64,000 nucleotides of DNA, from assembly GCA_003856375.1 (NCBI GenBank), contig CP034120.1, positions 3,088,501-3,152,500 on the forward strand, given 5' to 3'. A program made the position numbers and the translations under genes. The stretch comes from Glaciecola amylolytica (GTDB lineage: Bacteria; Bacteroidota; Bacteroidia; Flavobacteriales_D; Crocinitomicaceae). Under the pieces are notes generated by a model, which had not been told where the DNA came from, searched no databases, and saw only the letters and a program-made list of their open reading frames with translations. Positions 16,823-49,536 of the stretch are shown piece by piece. Every line of letters starts with the position of its first letter. Positions within the stretch are counted from its first letter, which is position 1.

Positions 16823-16868
16823 GGAAGTGAATAGTATTTCAGCCTTTGAAAATAAGAAAATTCTATCA

Positions 16869-16892
16869 GTCGGGGCGAAAAATTATTCGCTC
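16869..16892. repeat. Decayed copy of the REP-like palindrome
   Basis: GTCGGGGCGAAAAATT followed by ATTCGCTC resembles the palindrome inside the RAYT gene at 27803. A 7-bp stem (GGGCGAA with TTCGCTC, one G-U pair) is still possible. It lies between the HEAGH gene and the first giant surface-protein gene. Confidence 0.6.
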
Positions 16893-16932
16893 AGATTGAT
16901 TTACTAAACATTACTCATTTTGTTTACTAAAA

Positions 16933-17027
16933 CGATTAAGTCATTGATTTTCAAATCCATTGAACAGGAATTTAATACTTAATTGACAGGAATTTAATCT
17001 CGGAGGAGCATTGTCACCCTACCTTTG
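16933..17027 (+). promoter_or_regulatory. Promoter region of first giant surface protein, shared pattern with 20315-20408
   Basis: TACCTTTG at 17020-17027 is a TAnnTTTG -7 box 25 bases before the ATG. Upstream, TTGACA at 16983 lies exactly 37 bases before the -7 box, as in the paralogue's promoter at 20364/20401. Between and around them, CGATTAA, ATTTAAT-CTTA and TTAATC recur in the same order. The spacing is longer than the usual -33/-7 distance, so these may be regulator sites rather than a -33 box. Confidence 0.5.
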
Positions 17028-17052
17028 CGCCAAACTAATTGAGATTCGCGTT

Positions 17053-20000
17053 ATGGACTCTGTTTACTCTTTTCTCAGCCTTTCATTCGGGCGGATTTCC
17101 CGAACATCAAAGCAACTACTGACACTTGTTTTCCTTGGTTCCTGTGGAATTCTTTCGGCTCAGGTTACAGTAGGTTTTCAAGGTGGTGAAGTTGGTGATC
17201 CCTGGGGATTTACTTCTACCGGAGCAAGTGCCTTATCAATTTCAGAAGCCACACAGACACCCAATAAAGTAACAGGAACAACTTCGCTGGTAGTGGGTGG
17301 AAACACCGCAGGAGGAAACTGTTTTGCCACCGGAAGCGGAAATGGTCCGGCAACTGCAAGAACATTTACCTTCAATTCCTTGGATATCACTTCGAGCAAT
17401 GCCTCGACAAGAACACTGACATTCAGCTGGGGAAATCGTTATCCTGCCTGCAGCGGAACCGGATGGGACAGTGGTGAAAATCTGACTTTCAGAGCATATC
17501 ACGATGGTGTTGCGCAAACTACCGTTACATTAGCTACCGGATCAAACAATGCTCAATTCAGCATTCTATCCAATAGCTATACCTGGTCTGTTCCTGCTTG
17601 TGTTTCGCAATTTCACTTTGTTGTGAGCATTACGACCAACCGGGCAGATGAATTGTTGTTTATTGACAACGTAAAAATGACCGCACCTCAGTTAAACGGT
17701 TCACTTGTGACCAGTCCGATTTCGGGAGACACTTCCGTTTGTATCGGAGCATCTGAAAATTACAGTGTCACACCGGAAGCAGGAATTTCCTATACCTGGA
17801 GCGGATTACCTACAGGAGCATCTTTTACAACAGGCAACGGTACACCGGCATCTTCCACCATGAATGTCAACTGGGGAACAACTCCTCCGGGAACCTATAC
17901 ATTGACTGTTACACCTTCAAATTCCTGCGGAGTAAGCGGTGCTCCTCAAACGATCTCAATCACGATTCTTCCGGCACCGGTTCCGGCTACTATTTCCGGC
18001 CCAACTTCTTTGTGCAACGGAGAAACCATTACATTAAACTCCAGTTATTCCACTGGAAATACCTGGTCGCCCAACGGAGAAACAACAGCTTCCATTCAAG
18101 TATCTGCTCCCGGAACTTACACCGTATCGGTAGCAACTCCATGTGGAATTATAACAGCATCACACACCGTAACACTTAATCCGGCTCCGAATATTCAGTC
18201 GGTAACTCCAACACCAATCAGTTGTTTCGGAGCCAATGACGGATCTGTAATCATTCTTTCATCTGACAGCAATATTGAATTTTCACTGGATGGAATTACC
18301 TGGCAATCCGGAAATACCTTCAGCAATCTTGCTCCCGGAATCTACACGCCTCAAGTTCGTTTTGTGAACGGTTGTTCGACCACACTTTCTCCGGTTACTT
18401 TTACAGATCCTGCTCAGATTACGGCCAGTGCTTCAAGTACCGGATCTTATTGCAACGGATCCTTGGTTTTCCTTCACGGAACAACTACTTCAGCCGGAAC
18501 TCCTTCTTTCAGCTGGACAGGCCCGAACGGGTTTACTTCCACAGCACAGGATCCGACAGATGTAGCACAAACCGGAACTCATACCTATCAATTGATTGTT
18601 TCCATTAACGGATGTCAAAGCGCACCGGTTTCAACAACTGTAACCATAAACGCCATTCCGGCAGCAATCGCATCCAATACAGGACCATATTGCGCAGGAT
18701 CTCCGATCGTTCTGAACAGTTCCACTACTTCAACAGGAACAGTGAGTTATTCATGGACCGGACCAAATGCCTACACCTCATCTTTGCAGAACCCCACAAA
18801 CGCAACAGCTGCCGGAACGTATACACTTTTAATTACTGAAAATGGCTGCCAAAGTACGCCTGTCAGTACGACGGTAGTAATCAATCCATTGCCATCAGCA
18901 CAAGCTTCTTACACAGCACCTTTCTGCCCGGGAACAACACTCCAGCTGAACGGATCGACCACTTCAACCGGAATCGTAACTTATTCCTGGACGGGGCCAA
19001 ACGGCTATACATCCACCCTTCAAAATCCGTCCAACGGGACAGAAGCAGGAACTTACACCTTGGTTGTTACGGAATCGGGATGTCCGAGCCCAGCTTCAAG
19101 TGTTATTGTTATTTCAGAAATACCCACATTGTCTGTTTCAAATACAGGACCTTATTGTGAAGGAAATCCGATTCAACTGAACGGTTCGACAACTTCCGCA
19201 GGAACCATTACTTATTTGTGGACCGGACCAAACGGTTATTCCTCACAACTTCCGAATCCTTCCGATGCAACCCTTGGAGGAATTTACACTTTAGTGATCG
19301 CAGCCGGTAATTGCACGAACATCGCTTCAACAGTCGTTACAGTCAAGGCGAATCCTACTGCCGGATTTTCCTCTTCCGCACCATGCATGAATGACAGTGT
19401 AGTCTTTTTATCTTTATGTTCGGCACCTTCTCCGGAAATCATCACGAACTGGCACTGGGATTTCAACGACGGATTTACTTCTTCAGAGCAAAATCCGAAG
19501 CATTTATTCGGAAGCACCGGAGTTCATTCCGTATTCTTAAAAGTGACGACAGCTTCAAATTGCATTGCAAGCATTACACAGGATATTGAAGTTAAAGCAG
19601 CAATCAGCGCTAACTTTCACTACTCTCCTTCTACCATTTCGACCTTGGATCCAACGGTTCATTTTGTGAATGCCAGTTCAAATGCCACATCATACCTTTG
19701 GGATTTTGGTTACGACAACGAACAATCAACGGAAACCTCTCCTGATTTTGTTTTTCCTGCTCAACCCGGTTCCTATTCTGTTAAGTTGATTGCTTACAAT
19801 GAAGAGGGATGTAAAGACAGCATCACAAAGATCATCTTCATAAAAGATGAAATGATCCGTTACATTCCAAATGCTTTCACTCCCGACGGAGATGAGTTTA
19901 ACCAAACTTTCAAACCGGTTTTCTCCAGTGGATTTGATCCTCAGAATTACACTTTACTGATCTACAATCGTTGGGGTGAAACCGTTTTCGAATCTCATGA

Positions 20001-20136
20001 CACCAATGTTGGATGGGATGGAAGTTACAGCGGTGAACTTGTTACCGAAGGAGCATATATCTGGAATATCACCGTGAAACAATTTCATAGTGATGCTTTC
20101 GAAACTTTTTCCGGTCACGTAACACTTATCAGATAA
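17053..20136 (+). CDS. Giant T9SS type B cell-surface protein (Ig-like/PKD repeats), paralogue A
   Basis: 1027-residue exported protein. The signal peptide ends near ILSAQ (residue 37). An N-terminal domain (residues 38-220) is nearly the same as in the next gene. Then follow Ig-like modules, an SprB-like unit (ISCFGANDGSV), four repeats of about 80 residues (459-769; YCAGSPIVLNSSTTS, YSWTGPN), PKD-like units (WHWDFNDGFTS), and a gliding-motility-associated type B sorting domain (IPNAFTPDGDEFN, YNRWGETVFES, GWDG, HVTLIR). Type B cargo passes through the type IX system and usually needs an SprF-like partner. ATG 17053 is preferred over an in-frame TTG at 17011, which lies upstream of the -7 box. 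Confidence 0.9.
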   Translation: MDSVYSFLSLSFGRISRTSKQLLTLVFLGSCGILSAQVTVGFQGGEVGDPWGFTSTGASALSISEATQTPNKVTGTTSLVVGGNTAGGNCFATGSGNGPATARTFTFNSLDITSSNASTRTLTFSWGNRYPACSGTGWDSGENLTFRAYHDGVAQTTVTLATGSNNAQFSILSNSYTWSVPACVSQFHFVVSITTNRADELLFIDNVKMTAPQLNGSLVTSPISGDTSVCIGASENYSVTPEAGISYTWSGLPTGASFTTGNGTPASSTMNVNWGTTPPGTYTLTVTPSNSCGVSGAPQTISITILPAPVPATISGPTSLCNGETITLNSSYSTGNTWSPNGETTASIQVSAPGTYTVSVATPCGIITASHTVTLNPAPNIQSVTPTPISCFGANDGSVIILSSDSNIEFSLDGITWQSGNTFSNLAPGIYTPQVRFVNGCSTTLSPVTFTDPAQITASASSTGSYCNGSLVFLHGTTTSAGTPSFSWTGPNGFTSTAQDPTDVAQTGTHTYQLIVSINGCQSAPVSTTVTINAIPAAIASNTGPYCAGSPIVLNSSTTSTGTVSYSWTGPNAYTSSLQNPTNATAAGTYTLLITENGCQSTPVSTTVVINPLPSAQASYTAPFCPGTTLQLNGSTTSTGIVTYSWTGPNGYTSTLQNPSNGTEAGTYTLVVTESGCPSPASSVIVISEIPTLSVSNTGPYCEGNPIQLNGSTTSAGTITYLWTGPNGYSSQLPNPSDATLGGIYTLVIAAGNCTNIASTVVTVKANPTAGFSSSAPCMNDSVVFLSLCSAPSPEIITNWHWDFNDGFTSSEQNPKHLFGSTGVHSVFLKVTTASNCIASITQDIEVKAAISANFHYSPSTISTLDPTVHFVNASSNATSYLWDFGYDNEQSTETSPDFVFPAQPGSYSVKLIAYNEEGCKDSITKIIFIKDEMIRYIPNAFTPDGDEFNQTFKPVFSSGFDPQNYTLLIYNRWGETVFESHDTNVGWDGSYSGELVTEGAYIWNITVKQFHSDAFETFSGHVTLIR

Positions 20137-20314
20137 GCGCGAATGATGAATATTGATTTTGCAGCAGGATGGCAAGTCAAATTTTGATACAATATCCATA
20201 CTTGATCCATGCTTTATCCAGCCTTATTTGACGTCCGGAAATAACGTTACGGGCAGCCTCTTAAAACTCATGTTTTTACATAGAAACAAAAAGTGCATTT
20301 TCTTAAAAGCTAAA
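20137..20314. other. Intergenic region after paralogue A
   Basis: Roughly 180 bases upstream of the conserved promoter block. No open frame with family resemblance and no strong hairpin was seen. Confidence 0.5.
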
Positions 20315-20408
20315 TCGATTAAATGTTTGATTACTAACATATTAAATGTGATTTAATGCTTATTTGACATGTGCTTAATCCACTTCGAAAATGACTGATC
20401 TAACTTTG
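20315..20408 (+). promoter_or_regulatory. Promoter region of second giant surface protein
   Basis: TAACTTTG at 20401-20408 is an exact TAnnTTTG -7 box 18 bases before the ATG. TTGACA at 20364 is 37 bases upstream of it, and CGATTAA at 20315, ATTTAAT-CTTA and TTAATC appear in the same order and near-identical spacing as at 16933-17027. Confidence 0.5.
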
Positions 20409-20426
20409 TACTAAACATTAGCAACC

Positions 20427-23111
20427 ATGAATACCATGACTTCAATTTCACCTTTTGGAAAGCGTTTATCAAGTCAGCTTAACTACCTTATTTTCTCTCT
20501 TTTTGTTCTCTTTTTCTCCGGAACTGTTTCGGCACAAATCACACTTGGTTTTCAGGGAGGTGAAGCCGGAGATACCTGGGCATTTACTTCTACCGGAGCA
20601 AGCGCATTATCTATCTCGGAAGCAACACAAACACCCAACAAAGTTACCGGAACGACCTCACTTGTTGTGGGCGGAAATACGGCAGGCGGAAATTGCTTTG
20701 CTACAGGATCCGGAAATGGTCCGGCTACCCCCAGAGCTTTCACTTTCAATCAATTAGACATTTCCACCAGTAATGCTTCTACGAGAACACTTACTTTCAA
20801 TTGGGGGAATCGTTTTCCTTCCTGCAACGGAACCGGATGGGACAGTGGTGAAAATCTGGTATTTACCGCTTATCACAACGGCATTGCGCAAACACCCGTG
20901 ACTTTAGCTGTCGGATCAAACAATGCTCAATTCAGTATTTTGTCGAATAGTTATACCTGGACAGTTCCACCGTGCGTTTCGCAATTTTATTTTGTGGTCA
21001 GTGTTACGACCAATCGCGCGGATGAGCTATTATTTATTGACAACGTAAGACTCACAACACCACAACTAAACGGTTCTTTAACAGTATCACCTATTTCCGG
21101 TAATGTTTCTGTTTGTTCGGGAACTTCCGAAAACTACAACGTTACTCCCGAAACCGGAATTTCCTATACCTGGAGCGGATTACCTGCCGGAGCTTCTTTC
21201 ACAACAACCAACGGCACAACGGCATCTTCCAACATGACGATCAACTGGGGAACAACAGCTCCCGGAACCTACACAATCACTGTTACGCCTTCCAACTCCT
21301 GTGGAAACCCGGGTACAGCTCAAACAATTTCCGTGACAGTTCTTCCTGCACCCACTCCGCTAACTATTTCCGGACCAACTTCCTTATGCATCGGAGATAC
21401 AATTATCTTGACTTCAAGCTATGCATCCGGAAATACCTGGTCGCCAAACGGAGAAACAAGTGTTTCAATTTCAGTTTCTTCTGCCGGAACTTACACCGTA
21501 TCAGCAGCAACTTCCTGCGGAACACTCAATGCATCACATATTGTAACTCTCAATACGCCACCGCCGGCAAGCATCACTCCCGACGGCCCGACCAGTTTCT
21601 GTCCCGGTGATTCGGTGACTTTAACATCCGGAAGTTCATCCGGAAACAGCTGGTCGACCGGAGCCACAACAACATCCATTACAGTTACAACAGCCGGAAC
21701 TTACGTTCTTACAGTTACGGACGTTTGCGGACCAAGCTCTGTTTCACAACAAGTTATCATTCTCCCGCTTCCGAATCCTCAGATTTCAGGCAACACTTCT
21801 TTCTGTGCCGGGCAGCAAACCACGCTTACTGCTTCCGGTGGCGATACGTATCTTTGGTCGAACGGGGAAACAACAACTGCTATCACTATCACAACACCCG
21901 GAAACTACACCGTTACTGCTTTCAATCCTTGCGGACAGGCCACTTCTACTGTTTTCACCGTTACCGAAAATCCCTTACCCAATCCTCAAATCTCCGGCAA
22001 CCTGTCTTTCTGTACCGGACAACAAACCACACTTACGGCTTCGGGTGGTGACACTTATCTTTGGTCGAACGGGGAAACAACAACTTCCATCACTATTTTC
22101 ACTCCCGGAACCTATTCCGTTACCGCATTTAACACTTGCGGGCAAGTCGTTTCCGCTCCCGTAACCATTACGGAAAATCCACTTCCAAATCCGCAGATAG
22201 CGGGTAACCATTCTTTCTGTGCCGGACAACAAACCACACTTACAGCTTCAGGTGGCTCAACTTATCTTTGGTCGACCGGAGAAACAACAACTACTATCAC
22301 TGTCACAACACCCGGAAATTACACTGTTGCTGCCTTTAACACTTGCGGACAAGTTGTTTCTGCTCCATTCTCTGTGACTGAAATGCCGCTTCCGGATGCT
22401 CAAATCTCGGGAGAAACTTCCTTTTGTGCCGGAGAACAAACGACTCTGGCTGCTTCAGGCGGGAACACTTATCTCTGGTCAACGGGACAAAGCGGAACGA
22501 ATATAACCGTAGCTGCTCCAGGAACCTATTCCGTTTCCGCAACAAATTCCTGCGGAACAACTACCGAATCCGTCACGGTCACTATCGCCGCTGTTTCAGC
22601 CTCATTCACTGCAAGCACCCTAACTGGCGCAGCTCCATTGCCTGTTGATTTCACCAATACAAGCGATCCGAATGCGGTTTCATTCAACTGGAATTTTGGC
22701 GACGGCTCTACCGAAACCTCTTTCTCCCCATCGCATCTTTTCACACAAAGCGGCCAATATACGGTTGAACTTACGGCTACTAATGCAATCGGGTGTTCCG
22801 ACAGCTATTCACTGATTATCGAAGTCCTTGATATTCCTTCATCACTGACCATTCCAAACATATTTACTCCAAACGGTGATCATCAGAACGATGAGTTTAT
22901 CATCGTTGCCGAACGCATTGAAAGCTATAATCTCCAAATTCTAAACAGATGGGGAAATGTCATTCTGACCATTCAAGATCCTGAAACCGGATGGGATGGT
23001 ACGATACAAGGAGATCAGGCTACCGAAGGAACTTATTTCTATCAGGTAACCGCTACAGGCATCGACAAAAAGAACTACAACGAAACCGGATTCTTTGAGC
23101 TTCAACGTTAA
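20427..23111 (+). CDS. Giant T9SS type B cell-surface protein, paralogue B
   Basis: 894-residue exported protein. The signal peptide ends near GTVSAQ. The N-terminal 180-residue domain closely matches paralogue A (both contain GNTAGGNCFATGSGNGPAT). Ig-like units follow, then tandem modules of about 72 residues with SFCAGQQTTLTASGG and YLWSNGETTT. Near residue 725 is a PKD domain (FNWNFGDGSTETSFSPSH), then a type B sorting domain (IPNIFTPNGDHQND, ILNRWGNVI, GWDGT). The terminal residues FFELQR differ from the common VTLIR ending. A and B probably arose by duplication of the N-terminal part and promoter, with independent repeat tracts. The ligand is unknown. Confidence 0.9.
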   Translation: MNTMTSISPFGKRLSSQLNYLIFSLFVLFFSGTVSAQITLGFQGGEAGDTWAFTSTGASALSISEATQTPNKVTGTTSLVVGGNTAGGNCFATGSGNGPATPRAFTFNQLDISTSNASTRTLTFNWGNRFPSCNGTGWDSGENLVFTAYHNGIAQTPVTLAVGSNNAQFSILSNSYTWTVPPCVSQFYFVVSVTTNRADELLFIDNVRLTTPQLNGSLTVSPISGNVSVCSGTSENYNVTPETGISYTWSGLPAGASFTTTNGTTASSNMTINWGTTAPGTYTITVTPSNSCGNPGTAQTISVTVLPAPTPLTISGPTSLCIGDTIILTSSYASGNTWSPNGETSVSISVSSAGTYTVSAATSCGTLNASHIVTLNTPPPASITPDGPTSFCPGDSVTLTSGSSSGNSWSTGATTTSITVTTAGTYVLTVTDVCGPSSVSQQVIILPLPNPQISGNTSFCAGQQTTLTASGGDTYLWSNGETTTAITITTPGNYTVTAFNPCGQATSTVFTVTENPLPNPQISGNLSFCTGQQTTLTASGGDTYLWSNGETTTSITIFTPGTYSVTAFNTCGQVVSAPVTITENPLPNPQIAGNHSFCAGQQTTLTASGGSTYLWSTGETTTTITVTTPGNYTVAAFNTCGQVVSAPFSVTEMPLPDAQISGETSFCAGEQTTLAASGGNTYLWSTGQSGTNITVAAPGTYSVSATNSCGTTTESVTVTIAAVSASFTASTLTGAAPLPVDFTNTSDPNAVSFNWNFGDGSTETSFSPSHLFTQSGQYTVELTATNAIGCSDSYSLIIEVLDIPSSLTIPNIFTPNGDHQNDEFIIVAERIESYNLQILNRWGNVILTIQDPETGWDGTIQGDQATEGTYFYQVTATGIDKKNYNETGFFELQR

Positions 23112-23139
23112 GAACCGGTGCTTTAATCTAAAATCAAAC

Positions 23140-26100
23140 ATGTTTATTATGAAAAAACAATTCTTTACACTTATTCAAACCTGTTTGCTCGTCCTTACAC
23201 TGGGATTCTGGCAAACAGAACTCTATGCACAAACACCTTTCACCATTACCTGGACAGGTTTAGGCGGAGCGGGTACTACCAATGCATCCGGTGTTCCTAC
23301 AGGTATCACAATCGTGCAACAATATAATGGTGTAACTGCTACTTGTGTCACTACTCCATCTAATGGAGCTACGACGAGCTACAATGCCGTAATCAAGGCT
23401 GCTACAGGTTACAATTTCACGATTACTTCTATTGGAGGATCGGCATATGGAAGTACCGCAGGATCAAAAAAATTTACTCTTCAGCTGACAAATGGTTCTG
23501 TTTATTTACAACCCAATTTTTCAACTGTAGGTTCAAGCGGCAGCTGTGGAAGCAGTACAACATTGAACGCGTTTGCAGTACCGGCAGCCGGACAAACAGT
23601 GACCTCAGGCAACCAGGCAACAGTTACTGTATTACGAGGAATAGCAGGATCTGAAAGCGGCGGTGGTTACAGCTACACACGTACACTTACCATAACAGGA
23701 GTTGTGACGCCTGTGTGTGACGCTCCAACAGGTTTATTAGCTTCAGCATTGACATCTTCATCTGCAGATTTAAGCTGGGGTGCAGTTTCAGGATCAGCAG
23801 GTTATCAGTATGTAGTTGATCAGACAGCAGCAAATCCGGCAGGTGCAGGAACAGCAACAAGCGGAACAACTTATAATGCAACTTTGTTAACTCCTTCAAC
23901 AACCTATTACCTTCACGTTCGTAACAGCTGCGGTGGAAGTAATTTCTCTTCATGGGCTACCATTCCATTCACAACAACTGCTGCTGCTGTTTGTTCAACC
24001 CCTACAAACCTTGCAGAAAACAATGTAATGGCAACAAGTTCTGATTTCAACTGGGATGCTGCCGGATCGAATGATTTTGAATATGTCCTTGATCAGAATG
24101 CAGGAAATCCCGCAGGAGCAGGAACTTCTATTAATGGCATTTCCTACAGTACTTCAACACTAGCACCTTCCACAACTTACTATTTCCACCTTCGACAAAA
24201 TTGCGGTGGTAGTTTCTCCAATTGGGTAATGGTTAACTTTACCACACCGGCGGCACCTTGTGTTGCTCCAACAGGATTGAACGCTTCAAATACAACTCAC
24301 AACTCTTCAGATCTTTCGTGGAACGCTCAAGGGAGCAACGGTTTTGAGTACGTAGTAGATCAAACTTCAACGGCTCCTTCTATTGCAGGGGCTTCAACAA
24401 CTGATACCACTTACGACGCAACTGGATTGACTTCTTCAACAACTTATTACCTACACGTACGTACAGATTGCGGCAGCGGAAATTTATCTCCATGGACAAC
24501 CATTTCTTTCACCACATTGGTGACACCATGCATCGCTCCAACAGGATTGAACGCTGCAAATACCTCTCACAACTCTTCAGATCTTTCGTGGAATACACAA
24601 GGAAGTAACGGTTTTGAATACGTAGTAGATCAAACTTCAACGGCTCCTGTTGTTGCAGGAACTTCAACAACTGACACCACTTACGACGCAACAGGATTGG
24701 CTTCTTCAACAACTTATTACCTACACGTTCGTACAGATTGCGGAGCTGGGAATTTCTCTCCATGGACAACCATTTCTTTCACCACATCGGTGACACCATG
24801 CATCGCTCCAACAGGATTGAACGCTGCAAACACCACTCACAACTCTTCTGATCTTTCGTGGAATGCACAAGGAAGCAACGGTTTTGAATACGTAGTAGAT
24901 CAAACGGCAACAGCTCCTTCTGTTGCAGGAACTTCAACAACTGATACTACTTACGATGCAACAGGATTGGCTTCTTCAACAACTTATTACCTACACGTTC
25001 GTACAGATTGCGGAGCTGGGAATTTATCTCCATGGACAACGATTTCTTTCACCACATCGGTGACACCATGCATCGCTCCAACAGGATTGAACGCTGCAAA
25101 CACCACTCACAACTCTTCTGATCTTTCGTGGAATGCACAAGGAAGTAACGGTTTTGAATACGTAGTAGATCAAACGGCAACAGCTCCTGTTATTGCAGGA
25201 ACTTCCACAACTGATACTACTTACGATGCAACAGGATTGGCTTCTTCAACCGTTTATTACCTACACGTCCGTACAGATTGTGGTGCAGGGAATTTATCTC
25301 CATGGACAACCATTTCTTTCACCACATTGGTGACACCATGTATCGCAACAACCGGATTAACAACAACGAATACCACTCATAATTCTTCGAATTTATCCTG
25401 GGATACGCAAGGAAGCAATGGTTTTGAATACGTAGTAGATCAAACTTCAGCAGCTCCTATTACAGCAGGAACTTCAACTACGGGAACGACTTACAATCCA
25501 ACGAACTTAACTCCATTAACAACCTATTATTTACACGTTCGTACAGATTGCGGAAACGGAAATTTCTCTCCATGGTCAACCATTTCTTTCACCACGTTGA
25601 TTACACCATGTATTGCTCCAACAGGATTGAATGCCGCAAATACAACACACAACTCTTCAGATCTTTCCTGGAACGCACAAGGAAGCAACGATTTCGAATA
25701 TGTGGTCAATCAAACGCTTGCTGCTCCTGCCACTGCTGGAACTTCGACGACTGATACCACTTACGATGCAACAGGATTGATTTCTTCAACTGTTTATTAC
25801 CTACACGTTCGTACGGATTGCGGAAATGGAAACTTCTCTCCATGGTCAACCATTTCTTTCACCACATTGGTGACACCATGTATCGCTCCAACAGGATTGA
25901 ACGCTGCAAACACCACTCACAACTCTTCTGATCTTTCCTGGAATGCGCAAGGAAGCAACGATTTCGAATACGTAGTAGACCAAACGGCAACTGCTCCTGT
26001 TGTTACGGGAACTTCGACGACTGATACTACTTACGATGCAACAGGATTGACTGCCTCAACTGTTTATTACTTACACGTTCGTACGGATTGCGGAAACGGA

Positions 26101-26931
26101 AACTTCTCTCCGTGGACAACCATCTCTTTCACCACATTGGTGACACCATGTGCCGCTCCAACTGGATTGAATGCTGCAAACACTACTCATAATTCTTCAA
26201 ATCTTTCCTGGAATGCACAAGGAGGAAACGATTTCGAATACGTAGTAAACCAAACGTCAACTGCTCCTGTTACTTCAGGAACTTCGACTACAGGAACAAC
26301 TTACAATCCGACAGCATTGGCTGCTGCAACGGTTTATTACTTGCATGTTCGCACAGATTGCGGAAACGGAAATTTCTCTCCGTGGACAACGATCTCATTC
26401 ACAACTTTAGCTGCTCCATGTGCTGCTCCAACGGGATTAAACGCTTCGAATATTACAGGTCATGCTGCAGATCTTAGCTGGAACACACAAACAGGAAGTA
26501 CCTTTGAGTACGTGATTAACCAAACGTCTGCCAGCCCGACAAGCAGCGGAACTCCAACGCCGAACAATGCGTATGCAGCATCTACTTTGACCAGTTTAAC
26601 TACTTATTATTTACACGTTCGCACGAACTGCGGAAACGGAAACTTCTCCGCATGGACAACTATTCCTTTCACAACCCTTTCGACTGTCGGGCTTGAGGAA
26701 CAGGAAGTCATTGACTTAAGTGTTTATCCGAATCCGGCAAGTGATTTAGTAACTATTTCAGGTCAAACGCAGGGAACGGTTACACTGGTGAATCTAAAAG
26801 GACAAAGATTGATTACTATCGATTTGAAACAAATAAATCAATTGGATCTATCCGCTTTTGAAAGTGGAATCTATTTTATCAACTACGCATCCGAAAATAA
26901 AACAGCAACTATCAAATTGGTCAAACAATAA
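23140..26931 (+). CDS. FN3-repeat T9SS type A surface protein
   Basis: 1263-residue exported protein. The start is ATG 23140 or the in-frame ATG 23149 (MKKQFFTLIQ); the signal peptide ends at ELYAQ. After a unique domain (residues 35-190) come eleven fibronectin type III modules of 90 residues, recognisable by APTGLNA, SSDLSW, FEYVVDQT, TYYLHVRTDCG and WTTISFTT. The C-terminus (SVYPNPASDLVTISG, GIYFINYASENKTATIKLVKQ split around residue 1190-1263) is a type A sorting domain, unlike the two preceding type B genes. Only 28 bases separate it from paralogue B, so it could be cotranscribed. A terminator follows at 26951. Confidence 0.92.
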   Translation: MFIMKKQFFTLIQTCLLVLTLGFWQTELYAQTPFTITWTGLGGAGTTNASGVPTGITIVQQYNGVTATCVTTPSNGATTSYNAVIKAATGYNFTITSIGGSAYGSTAGSKKFTLQLTNGSVYLQPNFSTVGSSGSCGSSTTLNAFAVPAAGQTVTSGNQATVTVLRGIAGSESGGGYSYTRTLTITGVVTPVCDAPTGLLASALTSSSADLSWGAVSGSAGYQYVVDQTAANPAGAGTATSGTTYNATLLTPSTTYYLHVRNSCGGSNFSSWATIPFTTTAAAVCSTPTNLAENNVMATSSDFNWDAAGSNDFEYVLDQNAGNPAGAGTSINGISYSTSTLAPSTTYYFHLRQNCGGSFSNWVMVNFTTPAAPCVAPTGLNASNTTHNSSDLSWNAQGSNGFEYVVDQTSTAPSIAGASTTDTTYDATGLTSSTTYYLHVRTDCGSGNLSPWTTISFTTLVTPCIAPTGLNAANTSHNSSDLSWNTQGSNGFEYVVDQTSTAPVVAGTSTTDTTYDATGLASSTTYYLHVRTDCGAGNFSPWTTISFTTSVTPCIAPTGLNAANTTHNSSDLSWNAQGSNGFEYVVDQTATAPSVAGTSTTDTTYDATGLASSTTYYLHVRTDCGAGNLSPWTTISFTTSVTPCIAPTGLNAANTTHNSSDLSWNAQGSNGFEYVVDQTATAPVIAGTSTTDTTYDATGLASSTVYYLHVRTDCGAGNLSPWTTISFTTLVTPCIATTGLTTTNTTHNSSNLSWDTQGSNGFEYVVDQTSAAPITAGTSTTGTTYNPTNLTPLTTYYLHVRTDCGNGNFSPWSTISFTTLITPCIAPTGLNAANTTHNSSDLSWNAQGSNDFEYVVNQTLAAPATAGTSTTDTTYDATGLISSTVYYLHVRTDCGNGNFSPWSTISFTTLVTPCIAPTGLNAANTTHNSSDLSWNAQGSNDFEYVVDQTATAPVVTGTSTTDTTYDATGLTASTVYYLHVRTDCGNGNFSPWTTISFTTLVTPCAAPTGLNAANTTHNSSNLSWNAQGGNDFEYVVNQTSTAPVTSGTSTTGTTYNPTALAAATVYYLHVRTDCGNGNFSPWTTISFTTLAAPCAAPTGLNASNITGHAADLSWNTQTGSTFEYVINQTSASPTSSGTPTPNNAYAASTLTSLTTYYLHVRTNCGNGNFSAWTTIPFTTLSTVGLEEQEVIDLSVYPNPASDLVTISGQTQGTVTLVNLKGQRLITIDLKQINQLDLSAFESGIYFINYASENKTATIKLVKQ
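23716..26688 (+). repeat. Tandem 270-bp FN3-encoding repeats
   Basis: Unit starts fall at about 23716, 23992, 24259, 24529, 24799, 25069, 25339, 25609, 25879, 26149 and 26419; from 24259 onward the spacing is exactly 270 bp. Units starting at 24529, 24799 and 25069 are nearly identical at DNA level; the first, second and last are more diverged. Confidence 0.9.
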
Positions 26932-26950
26932 GAAATCGGATAATTAACGG

Positions 26951-26982
26951 AAAGGGACGGGTTAAACTTCGTCCCTTTTTTA
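26951..26982 (+). terminator. Terminator after FN3 protein
   Basis: AAAGGGACG and CGTCCCTTT form a 9-bp stem with a 10-base loop, followed by a T run, 20 bases after the stop. Confidence 0.9.
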
Positions 26983-27085
26983 ATTTTACTCACCCTTTTT
27001 CACGTAAAAATGATCAGAGAATGAAAATCCAATAATCGATAGAGCTTAATTCTACGTACCTTAGCGAAAAATTTTTACACGCATT

Positions 27086-27412
27086 ATGGAGCAGGCTGAA
27101 TTCTTAGAACAAAAAGTATTTATTGATTTGAAAAACATGAATGACGGGTTCGACAAAGTAAGCAACCTTCATTTCAATGAATGGGATTTCGCAATCGTAC
27201 TTCAACGCGCAGAATATTTTGGTATCGGAATCTATGAAATCCAGGCATGGCTCGATGGCGTTTTATTCGAAGTTGCAGTACACGAGAGTTTCAACAAGAA
27301 AGCTACAGATCCAACGTGGTATAAAAAAGCGCTATTGACTTTTTCAAAACGACAAACCGGGCTTACGTTTACAGCATCTTATAAAGTTTCTGCAAAGCTT
27401 TTGGCAAGGTAG
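27086..27412 (+). CDS. Hypothetical protein, 108 residues
   Basis: I do not recognise this protein. It is soluble, with no signal peptide or membrane segment, and has an acidic first half and a lysine-rich end. Aromatic-rich motifs FNEWDFAIVLQRAEYFGIGIY and AWLDGVLFEVAVHES suggest a compact alpha/beta fold. A weak -7-like TACCTTAG sits at 27057-27064, 21 bases before the ATG. A perfect 40-bp palindrome begins 25 bases after its stop and may end the transcript. No sign of linkage to the RAYT gene other than position. Confidence 0.6.
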   Translation: MEQAEFLEQKVFIDLKNMNDGFDKVSNLHFNEWDFAIVLQRAEYFGIGIYEIQAWLDGVLFEVAVHESFNKKATDPTWYKKALLTFSKRQTGLTFTASYKVSAKLLAR

Positions 27413-27437
27413 ATTGATGTTTAATTGATATTCAAAT

Positions 27438-27477
27438 AACCAAAACGGGGCGGAAAATTTTCCGCCCCGTTTTGGTT
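27438..27477. repeat. 40-bp perfect palindrome (REP-like), upstream of RAYT
   Basis: Half-site AACCAAAACGGGGCGGAAAA is followed directly by its exact reverse complement. The inner half-site GGGGCGGAAAA is shared with the copy at 49501. Confidence 0.95.
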
Positions 27478-27526
27478 TACGAAAAGATCTTTTTAATTAA
27501 CTTATATAAGAGATCTTAAAAAGAAC

Positions 27527-28051
27527 ATGTACAATTCACTTATTCACAAGAGACAGAGCAACAGATTAAACGGTTACGATTATGCCAATGCTGGTCTCTA
27601 TTTCATCACATTAAATACTGAAAATCGAAAAAGGTTATTTGGAGAAATAAAGAATGGGATCATGCAATTGAATGAAGCGGGATTGATCGCTCAAAAATGC
27701 TGGTTAGAAATCCCGGAACACTTTCCGCATACTGCATTGCATGATTTCGTTATCATGCCGGATCATATTCATGGAATCATTGAGATTATTTACAATCCTG
27801 TCGGGGCGAAAAATTTTTCGCCCTTATTGAATCATAAGTCTGAATTTACGTCTCCGACAAAAACAATCGGATCAATTATCCGTGGATTTAAGATCGGAGT
27901 TACGAAATGGATCAGGCAACACACCACTATTTATGAAGTTTGGCAAAGAGATTATTACGATCATATCATTCATGATACGGATTCATTTGAACGCATTTGC
28001 CAATACATCCGGGATAATCCAAAGAATTGGAGAGAAAACGAATCGTTATAA
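27527..28051 (+). CDS. REP-associated tyrosine transposase (RAYT, Y1 family)
   Basis: 174-residue HUH-type nuclease of the Y1_Tnp superfamily. Visible are the N-terminal strand YDYANAGLYFITLNTENR, the HUH metal-binding motif in VIMPDHIHGIIEI (residues about 75-87), and the C-terminal catalytic tyrosine region, ERICQYIRDNPKNW. Single-domain proteins of this size carrying these motifs next to palindromes are RAYTs, related to IS200/IS605 transposases; they nick single-stranded REP hairpins in studied cases. Residues 92-100 (VGAKNFSPL) are encoded by a 20-bp palindrome of the same family as the flanking repeats. All expected motifs are present, so the enzyme may be active. Confidence 0.85.
   Translation: MYNSLIHKRQSNRLNGYDYANAGLYFITLNTENRKRLFGEIKNGIMQLNEAGLIAQKCWLEIPEHFPHTALHDFVIMPDHIHGIIEIIYNPVGAKNFSPLLNHKSEFTSPTKTIGSIIRGFKIGVTKWIRQHTTIYEVWQRDYYDHIIHDTDSFERICQYIRDNPKNWRENESL
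27803..27823. repeat. REP-like palindrome embedded in frame in the RAYT gene
   Basis: GGGCGAAAAATTTTTCGCCC (27804-27823) is a perfect 20-bp palindrome and is read in frame within the transposase. It differs from the flanking copies by A for G next to the central A/T tract. Confidence 0.9.
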
Positions 28052-28088
28052 ACCAAGTCGGGGCGGAATTTTCCGCCCCGTTTTGGTT
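28051..28088. repeat. 38-bp near-perfect palindrome (REP-like), downstream of RAYT
   Basis: Arms AACCAAGTCGGGGCGGAA and TTCCGCCCCGTTTTGGTT pair except for two positions. It starts at the last base of the RAYT stop codon and ends 14 bases from the convergent glyA stop, so it may also serve as the end of both transcripts. Confidence 0.92.
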
Positions 28089-28102
28089 TCAATATTATTC
28101 TT

Positions 28103-38872: not shown

Positions 38873-38917
38873 AAAAAGAAGAAGGGACGCGATACATCAC
38901 GTCCCTTCTTCTTTTTT
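38873..38917. terminator. Bidirectional terminator between secreted protein and histidine kinase
   Basis: A 17-bp stem (AAAAAGAAGAAGGGACG with its inverted copy) and 10-base loop, flanked by A and T runs on both sides, serves the convergent genes ending at 38859 and 38929. Confidence 0.95.
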
Positions 38918-49500: not shown

Positions 49501-49536
49501 AAACACAGGGGCGGAAAATTTTCCGCCCCTGTGTTT
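49501..49536 (+). repeat. 36-bp perfect palindrome of REP family, probable dnaN terminator
   Basis: Half-site AAACACAGGGGCGGAAAA is followed by its exact reverse complement, then three more T. It starts 18 bases after the dnaN stop. The inner half-site GGGGCGGAAAA is identical to that at 27438. Confidence 0.92.

Follow-up and report, generated by a model that had tools for sequence, protein, structure and literature searches.

According to the passages of Quentin et al. (2018; PMC6006769) that deal with them, the RAYT group 4 sequences are assigned to TnpAREP subclass 2.4, whose members have long double-foot REPs beside the gene together with in-frame REPs between the HuH and Y motifs. The foot of this subclass is given there as GT[AG]G, which was also the string of their REP search, so that a GTCG foot falls outside it. 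The relevant part of PMC8266576 reports one REPtron in which a change of the foot from GTAG to GTGG shifted cleavage to CC; in the E. coli REPtron no change of GTAG is tolerated, and efforts to retarget it and the S. maltophilia REPtron failed, so guide retargeting is not general.

The locus described here lies in the window (the whole 64-kb stretch of DNA analysed) and very probably represents a REPtron of the subclass 2.4/RAYT group 4 kind, that is, a domesticated single-domain HUH (Y1) transposase with about 50 double-foot REPs across the genome, one of which is in frame within the gene. Judged against the account of subclass 2.4 in the cited passages of PMC6006769, it shares the HuH-W-Q-Y layout, the absence of a long C-terminal extension, an occurrence in Bacteroidetes (among other groups), long double-foot REPs by the gene and an in-frame REP between HuH and Y. 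It differs in a foot that is mostly GTCG rather than GT[AG]G, in having DHIH for NH[IFV]H and YIRDNP for YIxNNP, and in outer arms that are site-specific yet complementary, a feature not met in those passages. Since subclass 2.4 was defined through protein clustering, the GTCG foot marks a variant. With E. coli TnpAREP (subclass 2.2; PDB 4er8) the locus has in common the predicted fold, the HUH and Y residues and flanking REPs that are also dispersed, whereas the E. coli REPs, as treated in the part of PMC8266576 cited, form imperfect palindromes in which a bulge is required and GTAG is strict, and the stem found here is perfect.

A first, sequence-only reading of this DNA had taken the long symmetrical palindromes to be unusual for a RAYT pair. 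This does not hold, since long double-foot REPs and in-gene REPs are already in print for subclass 2.4 (PMC6006769, passages cited), and the long symmetrical form is therefore not new. The RAYT-REP pair is of a kind already described, and what is added to it is the GTCG foot and the paired changes of foot and arms.

The transposase gene and its protein

Table 1. The RAYT gene and the REP copies of the window (positions counted from its first base)
Feature	Position	Strand	Remarks
TnpAREP/RAYT gene	27527..28051	+	174 aa; H80/H82, W139, Y160, N164
Upstream REP	27438..27477	.	Perfect 40-bp palindrome, foot AACG; 49 bases before ATG
In-frame in-gene REP (GTCGGGGCGAAAAATTTTTCGCCC)	27800..27823	+	Left foot GTCG, right foot lost; disordered HuH-Y loop
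Downstream REP	28050..28089	.	Left foot GTCG with a differing right side; overlaps stop codon
Dispersed REP, intact	49501..49536	.	Foot ACAG; orthologous REPs in G001 and G007 with different paired arms
Degraded REP	16865..16900	.	Left foot GTCG

The open reading frame is intact, from an ATG at 27527 to a TAA at 28049-28051, and its product contains the HUH/Y1 transposase motifs DHIH (H80, H82), WQ (139-140) and YIRDNP (Y160, N164). The orthologue in the related genome G012 has NHIH, and the motifs printed for group 4 are NH[IFV]H, WQ and YIxNNP. H80, H82, W139, Y160 and N164 are unchanged across 15 of 15 aligned sequences; the HUH pair, the catalytic Tyr and a third ligand some four residues downstream, by which TnpAREP/RAYT proteins are recognized, were all found in this alignment (n = 15).

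An AlphaFold2 model of the 174-aa protein (mean pLDDT 78.7) was compared by Foldseek with a PDB library, and the best match was 4er8, the E. coli TnpAREP with a REP hairpin (E 3.8e-7), followed by the TnpA proteins of IS608 and ISDra2. Inside the model, pLDDT falls below 50 only at residues 91-110, part of which is encoded by the in-gene REP. With the protein sequence, a PDB search gave just a weak match to 4er8 (E 0.35), the NCBIfam family REP_Tyr_transpos (NF047646) matched with E 4.7e-16 and 59 bits, below its cut-off of 80, and the Pfam profile score was 20.5, below a cut-off of 23. Matches to NF047646 above cut-off occur in 3 of 14 genus genomes and none lies within the RAYT clade of this protein, so the NCBIfam cut-off is not diagnostic for this branch. 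The RAYT label appears sound despite both sub-cut-off profiles, given that the predicted fold is closest in the PDB to a TnpAREP bound to its REP hairpin.

As a query, the protein finds its own gene as the sole match at E <= 0.01 in the 4,606,342-base single-contig genome (G000). A second, divergent RAYT-family gene was observed in the same genome (C1:3182891-3183244; locus L263), and a CAAGGGGATTAATCCCCTTG palindrome occurs within its match region as well as at 5 of 6 similar loci of relatives that were examined. In G004 (contig C63, locus L262) there is another RAYT with GTGGGGACGCGATGCATCGCGTCCCCAC palindromes on either side, and a RAYT homologue of G010 (L062:1027-1764) has its HuH-to-Y loop enlarged by a NASNASNAN-type repeat.

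The residue equivalent to R104 of E. coli TnpAREP, putatively placed by its spacing from W139, was considered for a link with the foot shift and then dropped. This protein has His149 there, G007 and G012 likewise have His, and both G004 and the second G012 gene have Arg. This distribution does not sort with GTCG and GTAG, and hence no claim is made that links the residue to the foot shift.

REP palindromes in the window and the genome

The sequence-only reading had placed an intact Y1/HUH gene between a perfect palindrome upstream and a near-perfect one over the stop, the two sharing a half-site; the positions and the common half-site (CGGGGCGGAA) were confirmed. The downstream palindrome consists of two 19-nt arms that are 89% complementary around a 2-nt centre. 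The in-gene, the intact dispersed and the degraded copies in Table 1 had been missed by that reading, and the in-gene copy corresponds to the commonest core in the genome. Within the window, GGGGCGRAAAWTT is matched 10 times at no more than one mismatch; shuffled sequence gives 0.89 matches on average.

In the 4.6-Mb genome, exact matches to GGGGCGRAAAWTT number 33 + 35 = 68, with 0 for the reversed control, and GGGGCGN{4,14}CGCCCC occurs at 38 places against 0 in the control, two of the 38 having unrelated cores. The RAYT gene is flanked by REP copies that also occur dispersed elsewhere, as is characteristic of TnpAREP/RAYT genes. The proposal of a RAYT accompanied by a REP family of its own, in a genome that appears to be of Bacteroidota, is borne out by the 4er8 fold match and by these half-sites.

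The feet are double and mostly GTCG, and do not follow the GT[AG]G of subclass 2.4. Among the 98 arms examined, GTCG was found on 37, GTAG on 6 and GTAG with an extra G on another 6; at the 42 sites with equal feet the corresponding counts are 16, 3 and 3, with GTGG at 2. The REP directly upstream of the gene has AACG instead, which counts against the reading. PMC2817692, the paper searched for the string GTCG, has 0 occurrences of it.

A preference of REPs for the 3' ends of genes has been noted in the part of PMC3733652 cited here. By a simple ORF caller, 30 of 50 sites were placed between convergent genes, 17 between tandem genes, 1 between divergent genes and 2 inside ORFs, these 50 including L014, which lacks a palindrome, and L036, an in-ORF site with an unrelated core. 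In the 64-kb window, convergent gaps total 283 bp, tandem gaps 4068 bp and divergent gaps 944 bp. REP sites lean strongly to convergent gene ends, on a baseline that is small (the 283 bp of convergent gap).

Two other observations were made in the window. Positions 16908-27445, a segment of about 10.5 kb bounded by two REPs, contain three large ORFs of 1041, 894 and 1278 aa. G004 has just one REP at this place, which lies upstream of its RAYT and aligns with both bounding REPs, and the flanking genes are found on the two sides of that RAYT; in G012 a RAYT gene stands at either end of some 8 kb of DNA, most of it unmatched. The stretch is a REPtron-bounded variable region. At 38873-38916, 12 bp off an ORF edge, there is a hairpin of a second REP-like type (GGGACGCGAT..).

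Distribution of the clade, the core and the foot within the genus

The RAYT clade of this protein (at least 65% identity) is found in G000, G004, G007 and G012 among the 14 genus genomes, with identities to the G000 protein of 87% for the G012 homologue and 65% for that of G004. The 13 relatives were searched for the exact 22-nt core. Among those bearing the clade it occurs 25 times in G007, 8 times in G012 and 0 times in G004; among those lacking the clade the counts are 13 each in G006 and G008, 5 in G001, 3 in G002 and 1 each in G005 and G013. Besides G004, the core is absent from G003, G009, G010 and G011.

The sequence-only reading held that the pairing would be coincidental if the palindromes were not over-represented, or if they were equally frequent in genomes without the transposase. 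The outcome is mixed: over-representation is strong (68 against 0 and 38 against 0), but the core is present in the clade-less G006, G008, G001 and G002 and absent in G004. Core presence or absence was consequently dropped as proof of pairing, since G006 and G008 (core without clade) and G004 (clade without core) break the rule, and the presence of the core in G006 and G008 counts against the RAYT-REP pairing. The two RAYT-family matches in G008 have no flanking GGGGCG palindromes.

The presence of the clade is matched more closely by the GTCG foot than by the core. Double-foot GTCG sites number 14 in G000, 7 in G004 and 6 in G007, while the ten clade-less genomes have 0-1 apiece; the exception is G012, which has the 87% homologue and 0 such sites. 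Double-foot GTAG sites are numerous in G006 (32), G007 (31), G008 (31), G012 (14), G002 (13) and G001 (5) and rare in G000 and G009 (2 each) and G011 and G013 (1 each), with 0 in the remaining genomes. Counted per arm, GTAG is found on 26/26 arms in both G006 and G008, 40/50 in G007, 20/30 in G012 and 4/10 in G001. The GTAG set may be an older population that remained after its transposase was lost or changed.

In-gene palindromes were observed in both G012 genes and in the G007 gene, where they are perfect and lie at loop positions near but not identical to that in G000. An in-frame REP between HuH and Y also occurs in G022 (L070); none was found in the 65% homologue of G004.

Paired change of the arms

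At the 49 sites of G000, outer positions 1-7 are 86-92% paired, compared with 34-65% in shuffled arms, and several pair types are involved. Positions 8-9 are mostly A-T with pairing equal to that of the shuffles, and from position 10 onward pairing is at background. In five relatives (71 sites) the foot hardly varies, and the next three pairs are variable but 90-99% paired against 40-48% when shuffled, these figures being a first count in which a few 21-nt cores are out of register. The relatives' sites were found with patterns containing GGGGCG, so conservation of GGGGCG in them is due to the selection of sites; pair changes were counted only outside GGGGCG.

At orthologous sites the foot and outer arms alter on both sides together. 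In 22 comparisons, which draw on 16 G000 sites and are not independent since they share G000 sequences, 94 of 154 pair positions are unchanged, 52 show paired double changes, 2 unpaired double changes and 6 single changes; the shuffled means for the three classes of change are 8.2, 14.9 and 67.8. With one comparison per G000 site the counts are 43, 2 and 6. The count omits L009/L186, whose flanks put the two REPs at different spots, and leaves unscored L015/L085 and L104/L189 (another palindrome or place), L043/L058 (no REP in the relative), the weaker blastn matches and the matches of the RAYT locus.

The candidates for this symmetrical change are template switching and a constraint on the single-stranded hairpin. 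Template switching within hairpins during replication, independent of the transposase, may be responsible, although we lean slightly against it. It fits the excess of paired double over single changes (52 to 6) and the arms that remain paired in G006 and G008 without the clade, and the making and maintaining of RNA hairpins by this process is described in the part of PMC8794818 cited. Compensatory selection on the hairpin would be expected to leave the same pattern, however, and template switching accounts for the arms while leaving the repeat family and the preferred foot unexplained.

Hairpins at gene ends

The palindromes might instead be host bidirectional terminators under selection, with the adjoining transposase incidental or merely their ancient source. 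Convergent gene ends are indeed strongly favoured, 23 of 49 sites have a T-rich tail on one strand or both compared with about 4% of random window positions, and the palindromes persist in G006 and G008 without the clade. The downstream REP also occupies the position of the glyA terminator hairpin of relatives: among 14 genus members a hairpin was scored at the glyA 3' end in 8 and a weaker one was seen by eye in 5, with none seen in G005. Against this, the conserved 22-nt core and the foot exceed what a terminator needs, 26 of the 49 sites have no T-rich tail, and G-T pairs are not in excess over A-C among mismatched arm pairs. Copies with symmetrical arms also sit within RAYT reading frames (in G012, G007 and G022; the in-gene copy of G000 has lost its right foot), so terminator selection alone is insufficient to account for the arms. 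On balance, the terminator explanation is improbable.

One convergent site (L111) carries different hairpins in different genomes. In G000 it is of the GGGGCG/AAAAATTTTT type; in G006, G002, G013 and G012 there is another REP type with a CGATTAATCG core or a variant of it; in G001, G005, G007 and G008 no REP was seen and the intergenic stretch is changed. Together with the glyA 3' end, this suggests that gene-end hairpins have been repeatedly invaded or replaced. A clean pair of empty and filled sites was sought, and none was found. The CGATTAATCG-type family recurs across the genus, with stems that differ yet are symmetrical; its centres include asymmetric ones, which weakened central symmetry as a sign of action at the DNA level.

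The Y1 HUH fold shared with the IS608/ISDra2 TnpA and the palindrome at each gene end might suggest that the locus is an active insertion sequence of the IS200/IS605 type, its palindromes being subterminal. This is rejected as most improbable, given a single full gene copy in the genome with tens of dispersed solo palindromes lacking IS structure, no tnpB-like ORF directly adjoining the gene, and a closest fold and family match of the REP-associated type.

Proposed mechanism and implications

The gene, its motifs and predicted fold, the repeat family, the foot shift and the paired changes are established here, and on them the REPtron reading is preferred; cleavage and mobility of the REPs and a terminator function would be expected by analogy. 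As in characterised TnpAREP proteins, a REP on single-stranded DNA would fold into a hairpin, and the hairpin and foot would be bound by TnpAREP. Y160 would cut at a dinucleotide picked by complementarity to the foot, and the REP unit would spread by strand transfer, mainly to gene ends, where copies could persist and may serve as terminators. The foot of this clade has shifted from GTAG to mostly GTCG. The double foot would hold both the guide (..CG) and the matching cleavage dinucleotide, which is CG in CGAC and, for GTAG, CT in CTAC. By the guide rule in the cited part of PMC8266576, GTCG should direct cleavage to CG, which a GTCG double foot contains in its 3' half. A two-sided change of the foot would keep guide and target matched, and so the foot could drift.

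A bolder extension, which we think rather unlikely, is that the double foot forms a self-consistent guide/target pair, the 3' foot and the 5' guide being reverse complements, so that any two-sided change would retarget cleavage with guide and target still matched, and specificity would drift freely from GTAG to GTCG and further. The paired change would be made in one step by arm-to-arm copying during hairpin processing or replication, and REPs may invade or replace the tips of terminator hairpins. If true, tip invasion would explain both the site-specific complementary arms and the different REP types at one intergenic site in sister species.

The questions addressed are the co-evolution of a REP tag with its transposase and the upkeep of perfect palindromes. 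Within the genus there are related RAYTs whose feet are GTAG or GTCG, genes with and without an in-gene REP, and 16 REP sites of G000 that have orthologous REPs in relatives, which makes guide retargeting and hairpin maintenance directly testable.
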